Shown one piece after another: positions 10,240-33,421 of a stretch of DNA of 43,922 bases. The notes beneath the pieces are model-generated. The model made no database searches, was not told the DNA's origin, and saw only the letters and a program-made list of their open reading frames with translations. Source of the stretch: Actinomycetota bacterium (GTDB lineage Bacteria; Actinomycetota; Actinomycetes; S36-B12); contig WLLZ01000003.1 of the NCBI GenBank assembly GCA_009700485.1, forward strand, positions 1 through 43,922, written 5' to 3'. Made by a program: the position numbers and the translations under genes. Each line of letters begins with the position of its first letter. The stretch's first letter is position 1.

Positions 10240-11145
10240 TTGACCGAAAGCATTCCACTAGGCCAAAATGCGCCTCACCGCCACGTGACTTGGCAAGTGC
10301 CCGACCACATCACCGTGATCGCCGAGGTCGGCATCAACCACAACGGCGACATAGCTCTGGCCAAGCAACTCATCGACATCGCTGTGGAGACCGGCTGCGA
10401 CGCCGTCAAGTTCCAAAAGCGCACCATTCACCTCGTGTACGCAGCCGAGGTCCTTGACGCTCCACGTGAGAGCCCCTGGGGCACTACCCAGCGCGCGCAG
10501 AAAGAGGGGCTCGAATTCAGTCGCGAGCAGTACCAGGAAATCGATGCCTACTGCCGTGACCGAGGTATTGCTTGGTCGGCATCGGCGTGGGATATCCCCA
10601 GCCTTGACTTCATCGAGGAGTTCGACCCGCCCTTCCATAAAGTCGCATCAGCCATGCTCACCCATCAGGCCTTCATAAGGGCAGTGGCCAGCAAAGGCCG
10701 CGTGACCTTGATTTCGACCGGCATGGCGACCTTTGACATTATTGACGAGGTCGTGGACGTGTTCAAGGCCGCTTGCACGCCGTTCGTGCTGCTTCACACC
10801 GTCTCGACGTACCCGTCACCCGAGGCCGACCTGAACCTGTCGATGATCCACACCTTGCAGGAGCGGTATGGCGTGCCTGTTGGCTATAGCGGTCACGAGC
10901 CGTCGGTATCCCCCTCGGTCGTCGCGGCAGCACTTGGTGCCACGGTGATCGAGCGCCACATCACTATCGACCGATCGATGTATGGAAGCGACCAAGCTGC
11001 TTCTTTGGAGGAGAACGGGCTGCGCCAACTCGTCAACACCATCCACAAGATCCCCTCGATGCTGGGCACCGGCGAGAAGGATTGGGCCCCCGGTGAGCGC
11101 GAAGTCGCCGGGAAGCTGCGCTATTGGGAGTCGGCGGGTGGATAG
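10240..11145 (+). CDS. neuB: NeuB-type ulosonic acid synthase without SAF domain
   Basis: The 301-residue protein carries NeuB landmarks: VIAEVGINHNGD at 26-37, DAVKFQKR near 54-61, GYSGHEPS near 219 and ERHIT near 244. The family condenses phosphoenolpyruvate with an aldose to give a 3-deoxy-ulosonic acid. The protein ends soon after the TIM barrel. The C-terminal SAF (antifreeze-like) domain of about 60 residues, which in NeuB and PseI covers the partner active site, is absent. A second synthase at 32345-33421 has that domain. The start is TTG. The downstream SIS gene overlaps its end by eight bases. Synthase class is sure; the sugar made is not. Confidence 0.87.
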   Translation: MTESIPLGQNAPHRHVTWQVPDHITVIAEVGINHNGDIALAKQLIDIAVETGCDAVKFQKRTIHLVYAAEVLDAPRESPWGTTQRAQKEGLEFSREQYQEIDAYCRDRGIAWSASAWDIPSLDFIEEFDPPFHKVASAMLTHQAFIRAVASKGRVTLISTGMATFDIIDEVVDVFKAACTPFVLLHTVSTYPSPEADLNLSMIHTLQERYGVPVGYSGHEPSVSPSVVAAALGATVIERHITIDRSMYGSDQAASLEENGLRQLVNTIHKIPSMLGTGEKDWAPGEREVAGKLRYWESAGG

Positions 11146-16771: not shown

Positions 16772-17443
16772 ATGAGTCGTGACTACCTTGATGTCGAGTA
16801 CTCGGCAACTGCTCGGCCCATGACGGACTATCCAAGTCTTCTGGCGGCTCATTTGGCGTCGAAGTGGGATATCCGCTCGGGCCAGAGTCTGCTTGATGTT
16901 GCGTCCGGACGTGCGGAGATGTCAACAGGCTTCACCTCACTGGGGCTAAGGGTCACTGCACTGGATGCGTCCCCCGAGGCGGAGCACTTCGCCATCCAGG
17001 GGGGGGCGGACTTCATCTCAGGGGTAATCCGCCCGAACGAACCGATGCCAGTGGCCGATGCATCCTTTGACGTGGTCTTCTGCAAGTCCTTCGTTGAGCA
17101 CCTGCGCGAACCAATCAACTTCGCCGAGGATTGCTATCGAGTCTTGAAGCCTGGGGGCAAGGTCATCTTCCTGACTCCGGATTGGGAATCGAACCACCGA
17201 ATCTTCTTCGACGATGTCACCCACGTGACTCCATTCTCAACCGTCACGATGCAGCAACTGCTCGTGTTGAGCGGTTTTGAGAATGTGATCAGTTATCGGT
17301 TCAGGCAATTGCCCGTCACATGGCGATACCCGGCGATGAACGCCGTGTGTGCAGCAATCGCGCCCTTAGTGCCCAGCCGGACGACTCGGAAGTTCTTACG
17401 TTGGAGTCGCGAGTTGATGGTGTGCGGGGTGGGCATCAAGTAG
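16772..17443 (+). CDS. Class I SAM-dependent methyltransferase
   Basis: The 223-residue Methyltransf_11-type protein has motif I SLLDVASGRAEMS at about 39-51. Acidic motif II is VTALDAS, motif IV is FDVVFCKSFVEHL, and a post-motif LKPGGKVIFLTPDWE follows. A run of eight G at 16999-17006 lies inside the frame and is in phase. No strong Shine-Dalgarno precedes the ATG at 16772; an 18-codon open frame starting at 16726 runs across it and could couple translation. It probably methylates a glycan or sugar intermediate. The substrate is unknown. Confidence 0.82.
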   Translation: MSRDYLDVEYSATARPMTDYPSLLAAHLASKWDIRSGQSLLDVASGRAEMSTGFTSLGLRVTALDASPEAEHFAIQGGADFISGVIRPNEPMPVADASFDVVFCKSFVEHLREPINFAEDCYRVLKPGGKVIFLTPDWESNHRIFFDDVTHVTPFSTVTMQQLLVLSGFENVISYRFRQLPVTWRYPAMNAVCAAIAPLVPSRTTRKFLRWSRELMVCGVGIK

Positions 17444-17523: not shown

Positions 17524-17529
17524 GGGAGG
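17524..17529 (+). promoter_or_regulatory. Strong ribosome binding site for an out-of-frame ATG
   Basis: GGGAGG lies 10 bases before the ATG at 17540. That ATG opens a frame which enters the C10 tract and stops at 17615-17617. A single-base change in tract length would join it to the 17577-18341 frame. Confidence 0.55.
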
Positions 17530-17576
17530 CTGAGACCAAATGGGACAAGTGAGAATGATGGACTTGGCCGACCTTC

Positions 17577-18341
17577 GTGCCTTTCTTGAAGACTGCCCCC
17601 CCCCCGGCGCCGTCTGACTTAACGCAATCATCCGGAGATGAAAGCGACCTGCCGTACGAATACGAGTTGGATGATCTCTTCCACCTTTACTCGACCGTGC
17701 GCAGAACTAGTTGCGTATCCGTCCTCGAATTCGGATCTGGTTGGTCGACGGTAGTCTTTGCGTTGGCGCTTCACGAGAATGCAGAGTATTTCGGGGACGA
17801 GCACCGGCGGCTAGTTCGCCACCCGAATCCATTTCAAATCCTGACCATCGATGCCTCCGACCACTGGCAGGAGGTGGCCCTCGCCCGGCTCCCTGACTGG
17901 CTGAGATCAACCGTGCGGCCCGTCTCATGCAGCGTCAATCTCGTTGATCGATATGGGTCGTACGTGCACCTCTACGAGAACGTCCCAGAATTCGTGGCGG
18001 ACCTTATCTATCTTGACGGGCCGGATCCGGAACAAGTCCACGGCGCAATTAACGGCTTTGAATACAGCGAACTCCATACCCTTCCGATGGGCGCTGACAT
18101 TTTGCGCATCGAACCGCATGTTTGGCCGGAGACAATGATCATCACCGACGGCCGGACAGCGAATGCTCGCTTCCTCGCCGCTCACTTGCGCCGTAATTGG
18201 CAGGTGATACATGACCCCTTCGGTGATCGAACCACGTTCCGGCTGGAGGAGACTCCATTTGGCCCGGTGATTGAGAAGCATTTGTCTACGCGACTAGCGG
18301 CGGCGAGGGAGTTGAGGGACAAAGAAGGTCCGAATATCTAG
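17577..18341 (+). CDS. Methyltransferase-fold protein, 5' end frameshifted at a C10 tract
   Basis: The open frame from the GTG at 17577 gives 254 residues. A Rossmann-type SAM motif, VLEFGSGWST, lies at 49-58, and DLIYLDGPDPE near 143 resembles motif IV of O-methyltransferases. This GTG has no good ribosome site. A much better start is the ATG at 17540 with GGGAGG upstream, but it is in another frame and ends after 25 codons, beyond ten consecutive C. With nine or twelve C it would fuse into one protein starting MGQVRMMDLADLRAFLEDC. Either an assembly error or length variation of the tract explains this. The fold assignment is fairly sure, the substrate unknown. Confidence 0.72.
   Translation: MPFLKTAPPPAPSDLTQSSGDESDLPYEYELDDLFHLYSTVRRTSCVSVLEFGSGWSTVVFALALHENAEYFGDEHRRLVRHPNPFQILTIDASDHWQEVALARLPDWLRSTVRPVSCSVNLVDRYGSYVHLYENVPEFVADLIYLDGPDPEQVHGAINGFEYSELHTLPMGADILRIEPHVWPETMIITDGRTANARFLAAHLRRNWQVIHDPFGDRTTFRLEETPFGPVIEKHLSTRLAAARELRDKEGPNI
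17596..17605 (+). repeat. C10 homopolymer tract inside the 5' coding region
   Basis: Ten consecutive C start at 17596. The upstream frame from the ATG at 17540 reads TGC and then nine C in phase, and stops at 17617. The downstream methyltransferase-like frame needs a C count that is a multiple of three. This is the arrangement of slipped-strand phase-variable genes, though a one-base sequencing error would look the same. Confidence 0.75.
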
Positions 18342-18431
18342 CGGATTAGTGAAATGTGAGCGTTGCTGTTGATTCACGAATCGCCCAATTGCGATGGATC
18401 CTACCGTGCACAGGACGATAAGATTCGGCTG

Positions 18432-20246
18432 ATGAGCGAGGTCACGGATTCCAACACCACCAAAGGTGACCGCACATATCTTGTTACAAGTGCGCTTGAG
18501 CGTACTTGGCCATCGGACAGACATATCGTCTTCCTGGGCCAATGGTGCCTTCGATATTCGCGGCGCGAAGTCTGGTCAGGGCTAGACTACTCGGTCGCCC
18601 CTTACCACTGGGATGATCGAGCGCAAATACCGAAAGATCTTGAATACATCAATGACATCTATGAGGCCCTGCTCCCGGAATTGGCTCGGGTGTTAAACGA
18701 GATTCATGGAGTGAGCTACTCGGTGCGGTATTGGCGCATCGTCGTGGGTTCTTGGCTCTATTACTTCTCCCAGGTGGTCATGGATAGATGGAGAGTTCTA
18801 CAGTGCGCAAGTGAGTCTTATTCGAGGCCCACGCTTCTTAGGGTTACTCCGGATGACACACCTCTAGCCTCGCCTAACTCAGCGGCCTTTCTGCGTGCGA
18901 CTGAAAGCGACGAGTGGAATGAACGCTTGTGCGCGGACATTGCTGATCAGTGGACAAATATAGAAGTAACTAAGACCCAACAATGTCAAGTTATCAACCG
19001 CCCATTCAGGCTAAAAAGCGAGCAGGCAGGAAACGTCAGATCATCCATCCTGCGGATTCTGTACTCCATGGTTGTTAAGCCTCTGGATTGGTTAGCCCAA
19101 CGACGTATCTTCTATGGTGAGGGAGTTTCACTACATTCGGATTATCTAAGCCGGCCAAATAGGTTCGCACTTTCCGTTCTTATGCGCCAGGTTCCCTCGA
19201 TGAGTTTGCCTATCCAACTTCCACAGACTGACGCCCGAACTGCCTCGCGAGCATGGGGGCTGACGACGGCCGACGGCGATGCGTTCAAAAACGCGCTTGC
19301 GGTACTGATCCCGCAATACTTACCAACGTGCTTTCTCGAAGGATTTGAACAGGCGCAGGCTCTCGCAGCTCATTCAGGGTGGATACGCAACCCCCGTGTT
19401 GTCATGACCGCCAATGCTTTCGACAGCGATGATAGATGGAAGCTGTGGGCGGCAGAACAGGTCGACAAGGGAGCGAAGTTGGTCATTGCTCAGCATGGTG
19501 GAGGGTATGGCTCACAACAGTGGTCGGCAATGCAGAACTACGAAATGAGCATCAGCGATCGCTATCTCACATGGGGATGGAGCGACCCCCAAGAGGCTAA
19601 GGCATATCCAGCACCAGCTACGAAACTAGTAGGAATGCGCGTTAGGCGCCCAAGACGAACCGGAAAGTGCGTTCAAGTTACTGCTTCTCTGCCGAGGCAG
19701 AGCTATTGGATGTTCGGCGCCCCCATCGGGCCGCAGGTTCACGACTACATCGACGACCAGTTTCGTTTCGCTGCCGCGCTGAACGTCAATGTGCGGGAGG
19801 ACCTCTTGGTGCGTCTTTACCATCGTGACTACGGTTGGGACCTACAGCAACGATGGCAGGACCGTGAACCAACTATTGCTACTGACCCTGGTCGCCAACG
19901 ACTGGATCGCATTCTGCGCGAGGCTCGGCTCTATGTCGCAACCTACAACGCGACAACTTTTCTTGAGTCCTTCACCCAAGGAATTCCTACTGTGATCTTC
20001 TGGGACCCGGAGTTTTGGGAACTTTCGATTGAAGCCAAACCATACTTTGACGTCTTACGGCAGGCCGGTATTCTTTTCGACGATCCCGTTAGTTGTGCAG
20101 CGATGGTGAATTCAATATGGGATGACGTGCCTGCTTGGTGGGAGTCCCCTGACGTCCAGTCCGCCGTTATATCCTTTTCTGAGCGATTCGCGCACGTGGG
20201 AGCGCGCCCATTAGGTCGGCTAAAGAGTGCACTTATCGATTGGTGA
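18432..20246 (+). CDS. LIC12162 family putative transferase
   Basis: From the ATG at 18432 this gives 604 residues. A TTG at 18363 is in frame but adds an unconserved segment. The N-terminal signature is that of the LIC12162 family first described in Leptospira surface-polysaccharide loci: LVTSALERTWP, FLGQWCLRYSRR and VAPYHWDDR. The C-terminal half is GT-B-like, with VIAQHGGGYGSQQWS and the donor-loop-like TFLESFTQGIPTVIFW. Biochemical function is not established. It is probably a cytoplasmic glycosyl- or related transferase. It lies 90 bases after the C10-tract gene and ends the plus-strand run. Confidence 0.82.
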   Translation: MSEVTDSNTTKGDRTYLVTSALERTWPSDRHIVFLGQWCLRYSRREVWSGLDYSVAPYHWDDRAQIPKDLEYINDIYEALLPELARVLNEIHGVSYSVRYWRIVVGSWLYYFSQVVMDRWRVLQCASESYSRPTLLRVTPDDTPLASPNSAAFLRATESDEWNERLCADIADQWTNIEVTKTQQCQVINRPFRLKSEQAGNVRSSILRILYSMVVKPLDWLAQRRIFYGEGVSLHSDYLSRPNRFALSVLMRQVPSMSLPIQLPQTDARTASRAWGLTTADGDAFKNALAVLIPQYLPTCFLEGFEQAQALAAHSGWIRNPRVVMTANAFDSDDRWKLWAAEQVDKGAKLVIAQHGGGYGSQQWSAMQNYEMSISDRYLTWGWSDPQEAKAYPAPATKLVGMRVRRPRRTGKCVQVTASLPRQSYWMFGAPIGPQVHDYIDDQFRFAAALNVNVREDLLVRLYHRDYGWDLQQRWQDREPTIATDPGRQRLDRILREARLYVATYNATTFLESFTQGIPTVIFWDPEFWELSIEAKPYFDVLRQAGILFDDPVSCAAMVNSIWDDVPAWWESPDVQSAVISFSERFAHVGARPLGRLKSALIDW

Positions 20247-31416: not shown

Positions 31417-32340
31417 TTGGTCACCGTGACAAAGTGGCTAGTAACCGGTGCCGGTGGATTCTTCGGAGCCAACGCAGGGGCCTTTCTTAATGGTCGAGTT
31501 GAGTCGGTAGGGGCCTTTAGAAGTCTCGCAGCTAGCTCACTATTTGGAACTAATGTTTCGATCGATTTGCGGTCTGGCTCGTCCATATACGAGGTAGTTG
31601 ATGCAGTGCGCCCCGATGTGGTCGTGCATGCAGCGGCGTTGGCAAGCCACGAGGCATGTGAATCTGACCCGGCACTTGCTCAGCTCGTCAATGTGGAATC
31701 GACAAAGCACCTAGCGCGGGCGTGCACCGATGTCGGTGCCAAGCTCGTGTATCTATCAACGGACGCGGTCTTCGACGGCAGTCGTGGAAACTACACCGAA
31801 AAAGATGCAACAAATCCATTCTCTGTTTATGGCACAACTAAGTTGCTCGGCGAGCAGGCAGCACTTGCCATACACGAGGATGTGCTGATCGCCCGAACCA
31901 ACTTTTTCGGCTGGAGCCCAAGCGGCACGCGGTCGATCTTGGAGTTCTTCGTAAATGCACTGCGCTCAGGTCAGCAGGTTTCGGGGTATACCGACTTTGT
32001 CGTCTCCTCTCTCTATGTTCAGGATCTGCTTTCGGCGATCTACGATCTGGTTGGTTCAGGCCGGCGCGGCGTGGTTCATCTGGGTGCTTCAAATGCACTT
32101 TCGAAGTATCACTTCGGGGTGCAGGTGGCCAGCCAGTTTGGCCTTGATGCAGAGCTGATCTCCCCCGTTACTGCCGCTGTAGGTGGTCATGCCAATTCCC
32201 GAGCACGCGATCTTTCCCTTAACACTTCTCTCATGGAGTCTTGTCTTGGCCGGTCGATACCGACACAGGAGTTTGGTATTGCCAGCGCCTACGATGATGA
32301 AAGTGCCGTCGCACCGCGAGTCACCGGATTTAGGGAGTAG
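31417..32340 (+). CDS. RmlD-like NDP-sugar reductase (extended SDR)
   Basis: This protein of about 307 residues starts immediately after the pseB stop. The TTG at 31417 is listed, but a GTG at 31426 giving MTKWLVTGAGGFFG is equally plausible. The fold resembles dTDP-4-dehydrorhamnose reductase: WLVTGAGGFFGANA, VVVHAAALASHEACESD, STDAVFDGSRGNYTE, and VYGTTK with Tyr138 and Lys142. No RmlABC genes are present, so dTDP-rhamnose itself is not supported. Placed between pseB and the PseI-like synthase, it may reduce a keto intermediate of that pathway. Confidence 0.82.
   Translation: MVTVTKWLVTGAGGFFGANAGAFLNGRVESVGAFRSLAASSLFGTNVSIDLRSGSSIYEVVDAVRPDVVVHAAALASHEACESDPALAQLVNVESTKHLARACTDVGAKLVYLSTDAVFDGSRGNYTEKDATNPFSVYGTTKLLGEQAALAIHEDVLIARTNFFGWSPSGTRSILEFFVNALRSGQQVSGYTDFVVSSLYVQDLLSAIYDLVGSGRRGVVHLGASNALSKYHFGVQVASQFGLDAELISPVTAAVGGHANSRARDLSLNTSLMESCLGRSIPTQEFGIASAYDDESAVAPRVTGFRE
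32333..32337 (+). promoter_or_regulatory. Ribosome binding site supporting a TTG start
   Basis: GGGAG lies seven bases before the TTG at 32345 and inside the end of the RmlD-like gene. It supports the TTG, although the open frame extends back to 32183. Confidence 0.5.
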
Positions 32341-32344
32341 ATAC

Positions 32345-33421
32345 TTGAACCACTTCAGAATAGGTGATCGCCTTATTGGATTAGGCCAACCCACCTACTT
32401 CATCGCAGATATCGCGGCGAATCACGACGGTGATCTTTCGCGCGCACTCTCATTGATCACGCTGGCTGCTGAGGCTGGCGCCGATGCGGCAAAGTTCCAA
32501 CACTTTAGGGCCGAGCACATCGTCAGTGACTTCGGCTTCCGCAATCTTGGCGAGCAACTCGATCACCAAGCATCGTGGTCGAAGTCGGTATTCGAAGTTT
32601 ATGAAGATGCCTCGCTGCCATGGGAGTGGACCTCATCGTTGGCCTCGCATTGCAAATCACTGGGGATCGAGTTCATGTCATCTCCGTATGACTTCGAAGC
32701 TGTGCTTCACCTAGACCCCTACGTGAACGCCTACAAGATCGGCTCGGGCGATATCAACTGGCTCGAAGAGTTGGAATTCATAGCAGCGCTAGGAAAGCCC
32801 GTGCTAATTGCAGCAGGGGCATCGACCGCTGATGATGTTGAGCGGGCGATCGCGGTGTTGTCTGCTGCTGGTGTGCCGATCGTGTTGATGCAATGCAATA
32901 CGAACTACACCGGGTCAATCGAAAACCTGGGATTCGTTAATTTGCGGGTGCTTGAGTCATTTGCCGCTTCGTATCCAGATGTGGTGCTGGGTTTGTCGGA
33001 CCACACCCCGGGGCATGTGACTACATTGGGCGCCGTATCCCTTGGGGCTCGGGTGATCGAGAAGCACTTCACCGATGACACCACCCGCGTTGGGCCCGAT
33101 CATGGTTTCTCTTTAGACCCGGTGTCATGGCGGGCCATGGTCGATGACACGCGGCGACTTGAAGCAGCACTCGGCTCAGGCATCAAGGTAATCGAGGCGA
33201 ACGAGCAAAAGACTTTGATCGTGCAGCGTCGATGCGTGCGAGCGGGACGCGCTTTGGCTGCTGGAACCGTGCTCACGCGTGAAGATCTGGCCGTACTGCG
33301 CCCGGCACCGTTGGATGCGGTGCCGGCACAATTAGTTGCTGATTTGATCGGACGCACTTTATCGCGTGATCTGGTGCTTGGCGAGGCTGTGAGCTGGGCC
33401 GATCTGGCACCTGCCACATGA
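32345..33421 (+). CDS. pseI: NeuB-family ulosonic acid synthase, PseI/SpsE type
   Basis: The 358-residue protein shows FIADIAANHDGDLSRA at about 19-34, the Asp-Ile-Ala-Ala-Asn-His pattern typical of PseI/SpsE rather than NeuB proper. DAAKFQHF follows at 47-54, then YKIGSGDINW, GLSDHT and EKHFTDD. The C-terminus from about residue 295 is a SAF domain (RRCVRAGRALAAGTVLTRED), which the other synthase in this window lacks. It condenses phosphoenolpyruvate with a 2,4-diacetamido-type or related aldose. The following GT4 gene overlaps its stop (ATGA). Confidence 0.87.
   Translation: MNHFRIGDRLIGLGQPTYFIADIAANHDGDLSRALSLITLAAEAGADAAKFQHFRAEHIVSDFGFRNLGEQLDHQASWSKSVFEVYEDASLPWEWTSSLASHCKSLGIEFMSSPYDFEAVLHLDPYVNAYKIGSGDINWLEELEFIAALGKPVLIAAGASTADDVERAIAVLSAAGVPIVLMQCNTNYTGSIENLGFVNLRVLESFAASYPDVVLGLSDHTPGHVTTLGAVSLGARVIEKHFTDDTTRVGPDHGFSLDPVSWRAMVDDTRRLEAALGSGIKVIEANEQKTLIVQRRCVRAGRALAAGTVLTREDLAVLRPAPLDAVPAQLVADLIGRTLSRDLVLGEAVSWADLAPAT

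Follow-up and report, generated by a model that had tools for sequence, protein, structure and literature searches.

The homopolymer switches described in the literature cited here come from host-associated bacteria. In Campylobacter jejuni, Cj1295, a gene with a homopolymeric tract, controls the di-O-methylglyceroyl modification of pseudaminic acid (PMC3068675), and SAM-dependent methyltransferases belong to the phasomes of Campylobacter (PMC6321876). Among actinobacteria, the tracts of Cutibacterium acnes, Gardnerella and Mycobacterium tuberculosis are mostly of G or C, and some of them are intragenic and frameshifting (PMC4746626, PMC11287997, PMC11898584). Most tract lengths in C. acnes track clades, a pattern of slow change and not of fast switching (PMC4746626). 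The repair protein NucS leaves indels of 1–2 bases unrepaired, and homopolymer phase variation in mycobacteria has been tied to this gap (PMC11551767). Cut-offs for slip-prone tracts have been set at 7 (PMC6321876) and at 8 (PMC11287997).

The locus described here is a methyltransferase-like gene that is interrupted by a run of ten C (C10) in the window, by which we mean the whole 43,922-nucleotide stretch of DNA that was analysed. It resembles the poly-G/C glycan genes of Campylobacter (PMC3068675, PMC6321876) in having a G/C tract of 7–11 bases in frame, in the switching of frame by a one-base change and in its nonulosonic-acid glycan setting. The Campylobacter genes differ in their measured length variation, in the many tracts that each genome carries and in the predominance of poly-G on the coding strand, whereas the window gene is represented by one sequence, has poly-C, encodes an unrelated protein and belongs to an uncultured, NucS-encoding host with very few tracts. 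With the actinobacterial homopolymeric tracts it shares an intragenic G/C tract that causes a frameshift, the mycobacterial ones being those linked to the indel blindness of NucS (PMC11551767). The C. acnes, Gardnerella and M. tuberculosis cases differ in being host-associated and in having been compared across many strains, and none of those that we compared concerns a methyltransferase encoded among nonulosonic-acid genes.

The features of the locus are collected in Table 1. At ten bases the tract exceeds both published cut-offs. The original prediction, made from the letters alone, placed GGGAGG ahead of an ATG at 17540 whose frame enters the tract and stops at 17617, with a methyltransferase-like frame following one base off; when re-read, these coordinates and the frame proved correct. 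The ATG 17540 frame encodes MGQVRMMDLADLRAFLEDCPPPGAV and ends with TGA at 17615–17617, and the long frame is offset from it by one base. When the tract length was varied by script from 5 to 13 C, with translation from ATG 17540, the modelled open frames were 265, 266 and 267 amino acids long at 6, 9 and 12 C, and all other lengths in this range gave products of only 24–27 amino acids. The modelling therefore bears out the prediction that nine or twelve C would fuse the two frames, and adds six C as a length that also works. Over the modelled range of 5–13 C, tract length decides between a full-length and a truncated product.

Table 1 Features of the methyltransferase-like locus, in window coordinates.
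Feature	Position	Strand	Basis or detail
Adjacent Methyltransf_11 methyltransferase gene, intact	16772..17443	+	Pfam PF08241, E=4e-16
G8 tract in the adjacent Methyltransf_11 gene, in frame	16999..17006	+	
GGGAGG, Shine-Dalgarno-like site for ATG 17540	17524..17529	+	Anti-Shine-Dalgarno duplex energy
5' end of the methyltransferase gene, ATG 17540 frame	17540..17617	+	25 codons at 10 C
Long methyltransferase-like frame, probable remainder of the same gene	17577..18341	+	254 aa from GTG 17577
C10 homopolymer, candidate slip-prone site	17596..17605	+	Codons 19-22 of the ATG 17540 frame
LIC12162 family transferase, next gene downstream	18363..20246	+	TIGR04331, E=6e-141, above cut-off

The reading of both frames as one gene is well supported by the sole relative that we found. 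This ortholog (locus L006 in genome G101, contig CAITYI010000306.1, uncultured bacterium isolate Loclat_bin-02354) comes from the same family as the window genome and from a different genus; the isolate name, Loclat being a Swiss lake, hints at a freshwater origin. Identity with the window gene is 82% across the long frame, and the ortholog forms a single uninterrupted gene of 265 codons. Because it is continuous and its ATG aligns with 17540, the gene is split in the window, and the simplest reading is that an ancestral single gene, starting at this ATG, has been carried out of frame in the window. The ortholog has no C tract and reads TGC TAC CCA GCT CCT TAC at the tract position; the tract is therefore not conserved in a comparison that, among relatives, comprises this one ortholog from another genus. 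No further homologs were found among 59 relatives, 85 genomes of the family, 166 of the order and 397 of the phylum, and none in plasmids or viral contigs. The gene is thus rare, being present in 2 of the 166 genomes of the order and, among the 397 genomes of the phylum, only in its own.

ATG 17540 is a strong start. The anti-Shine-Dalgarno duplex energy is -10.2 kcal/mol at this codon and -3.5 kcal/mol at GTG 17577, from which the long frame is counted, against a median of -2.9 kcal/mol for random positions; the aligned start site of the ortholog scores -5.8 kcal/mol. The ATG and its context, GACCAAATGGGA, are kept in the ortholog. GTG 17577, in contrast, corresponds to GTA there and is therefore not a conserved start, and the matching frame of the ortholog soon meets a stop. 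On account of the missing ribosome-binding site and the GTA in the ortholog, we rejected GTG 17577 as the normal start, in agreement with the earlier view that the long frame lacks a good start of its own.

Purifying selection on the gene outside the tract is strong, as judged from its divergence from the ortholog. Over 231 codons, dN is approximately 0.094 and dS approximately 1.8–2.0, with 26 differences at first, 19 at second and 117 at third codon positions. Constraint is weaker over the first 19 codons (dN of 0.40 and dS of 0.90 against the ortholog). The 254 codons of the long frame contain no second lesion. In the genome of the ortholog, the methyltransferase is intact and conserved despite the decay of both neighbours. 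There, L006:800-1080 is a remnant, with internal stops, of the upstream Methyltransf_11 gene (homologous to 16772-17443), and L006:2049-2830 is a similarly interrupted remnant of the downstream LIC12162 transferase (homologous to 18363-20246).

The protein resembles the class I SAM methyltransferases of the Methyltransf_24 family in its motif I-like VLEFGSGWST. Unlike members of that family (PF13578), it scores below the curated cut-off (21.6 bits against 26.3, over residues 50–154), so we call the gene methyltransferase-like and do not file it as a member; it represents a rare subfamily for which one relative was found. The long-frame protein had no match among NCBIfam profiles and no credible match among solved structures, an AlphaFold model built from the two sequences was unusable (pLDDT of 31), and PADLOC reported nothing for the gene.

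The surrounding genes form a surface-glycan cluster; the original prediction had pointed to homopolymer slippage as a known switch of surface-glycan genes. The cluster in the window encodes two NeuB synthases, a PseB dehydratase (above cut-off), a PseC-like aminotransferase and two cytidylyltransferases, together with the LIC12162 transferase, LicD, several glycosyltransferases and many methyltransferases. From this location we infer that the substrate of the enzyme is a surface glycan. A nonulosonic-acid, LIC12162 and LicD glycan cluster of this sort is the kind of locus in which switches of this type are known (PMC3068675, PMC6321876). The two NeuB-type synthases lie at 10240-11145 and 32183-33421. 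In the first, the SAF domain that normally forms the C terminus is missing, and an overlapping gene for a SIS-domain protein follows; a check for indel errors found no frameshifted SAF remnant of this synthase in the other frames.

The repair background of the lineage should permit slippage. NucS is encoded in the window genome and in all 12 of the relatives searched, and searches of nine genomes of the genus turned up no MutS, with control genomes behaving as expected. The window genome is 77% complete; two genomes of the genus at 95–96% completeness, and the others, agree with it. The pairing of NucS with no detected MutS is also part of why we take the host to be, in all probability, actinobacterial. 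Because NucS ignores small indels and MutS was not found, most slips should escape correction. Between sister species, the lengths of orthologous intergenic tracts vary (11 versus 10 and 12 versus 9), so tracts drift in length within the genus. Given this drift and the lack of small-indel repair by NucS, an intragenic C10 should slip. The same repair deficit that favours slippage equally favours gene loss by frameshift.

As the best of the explanations considered, we hypothesize that C10 is a slipped-strand contingency (phase-variable) site captured in the OFF state, and judge this about evenly balanced between true and false. Translation would begin at ATG 17540 behind GGGAGG and pass through the C tract at codons 19–22. 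At ten C, the ribosome would stop after 25 codons and no enzyme would be made (OFF); replication slippage to an in-frame length would give one protein of approximately 265 amino acids (ON). Under NucS with no detected MutS, most of these slips would escape repair, and cells would thereby gain or lose the methylation of a surface sugar. Slippage would presumably be frequent and reversible, and the population mixed. Phase variation was the central claim of the original prediction, and it is supported in part: the two frames are one gene, 17577 is no proper start, the gene sits in a glycan cluster, and the repair background of NucS with no detected MutS favours slippage. The switching itself we infer. 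The tract is known from a single consensus sequence with one length (10 C); we hold our confidence at an even balance because of this, because the repair deficit also favours loss and because tract lengths in C. acnes follow clades.

A consensus error, which the original prediction had named as its main alternative, is a serious rival, if rather unlikely; in that case the true tract is in frame, the assembly is off by one base, the gene is intact and a long slip-prone tract remains. Homopolymers of approximately this length are a classic site of sequence length errors. The source, a draft metagenome bin of 190 contigs and 77% completeness, and the intact, conserved remainder of the gene would both fit such an error. 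There is, however, no general sign of indel error: the remaining large genes of the window have their full length, and both the adjacent G8 and a C8 on contig C103 sit in intact frames.

The same intact remainder weighs against a fixed frameshift, that is, one slip in the lineage that turned the gene permanently off and began its decay, with no selected reversible switching. With its 254 codons free of any further lesion and strongly constrained by purifying selection, the gene could have been lost only very recently, and a frameshift within C10 could be reverted by the same slippage that caused it. We regard this explanation as rather unlikely too, but as a serious rival: losses should be common without indel repair, the gene is accessory (in 2 of the order's 166 genomes) and the genes on either side of it are degraded in the genome of the ortholog.

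It is improbable that the protein is made regardless, with the tract lowering expression and not switching it. Three routes could achieve this: a +1 shift of the ribosome at CCC-C, slippage of the polymerase on the tract, or initiation at the internal GTG 17577. The shift needed is indeed +1, three consecutive CCC codons are present and CCC-C is +1-slippery (up to ~1% next to the start codon in Escherichia coli; PMC4519876), but ribosomal slippage would yield little protein and no site of this kind is kept in the ortholog. GTG 17577 is in the frame of the long product and precedes its conserved portion, but it has no ribosome-binding site and is GTA in the ortholog, whose matching frame soon stops.

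The rarity of long G/C runs sets the tract apart from the rest of the genome (1.93 Mb, in the 190 contigs of the bin). By the composition of the window, C10 is mildly unusual, as 9 of 100 dinucleotide shuffles contain one. Pattern searches of the whole genome found 2 G/C runs of at least 9 bases and 4 of at least 8, against approximately 29 and 105 expected from base composition, which indicates that long G/C runs have been purged, yet C10 breaks a gene that is conserved. C10 and the G8 tract are two of the four runs of at least 8 and lie 590 bp apart, in adjacent methyltransferase genes; the chance that any two of four runs fall that close is approximately 0.0035, for a closeness that was noticed post hoc. 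The C8 on contig C103 lies within an intact ABC-transporter ATPase frame. The G8 at 16999-17006 could be a second switch.

A more speculative extension of the phase-variable reading, which we put forward only tentatively and think unlikely as it stands, is a dedicated contingency module, in which two adjacent glycan methyltransferase genes with their own G/C tracts, in the otherwise tract-purged genome of a presumably free-living actinobacterium, would give up to four combinations of surface methylation, perhaps against phages or grazers. If C10 does switch, in an uncultured and presumably free-living actinobacterium, this would suggest that bet-hedging of the same kind is not confined to bacteria of animal hosts and may serve, for instance, as a defence against phages or grazers. 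Such switching would likewise accord with the proposal that NucS, by ignoring small indels, leaves tracts free to switch. The slipped-strand mechanism is already known; the uncultured setting and the second tract in the adjacent methyltransferase gene would make this instance more notable.

Most of the other long G/C tracts in the genus are intergenic or inside intact frames, and none of them was seen to split a recognized family; two short frames at L044 have no family assignment. In genome G004, a run of 23 G (L036:2051-2073) sits in G-rich sequence close to the beginning of a YkuD (L,D-transpeptidase) gene; it is remarkably long for a bacterial genome and may be an assembly artefact. Some intergenic tracts recur across species, and Rfam gave no match at two intergenic tracts. 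A G/C tract beside a conserved, hairpin-like GC-rich element is 12 bases long in G003 (L034:2032-2043) and 9 in G008 (L050:2023-2031), five further species of the genus having only shorter or broken runs; it had no Rfam match. In the window genome itself, a G11/C11 tract on contig C133 (L037:2729-2739) lies approximately 45 bases upstream of a sulfatase gene; its counterparts are a G10 in the sister species G002 (L045:2001-2010) and a short run in G007, and by its length this tract could tune the sulfatase promoter.
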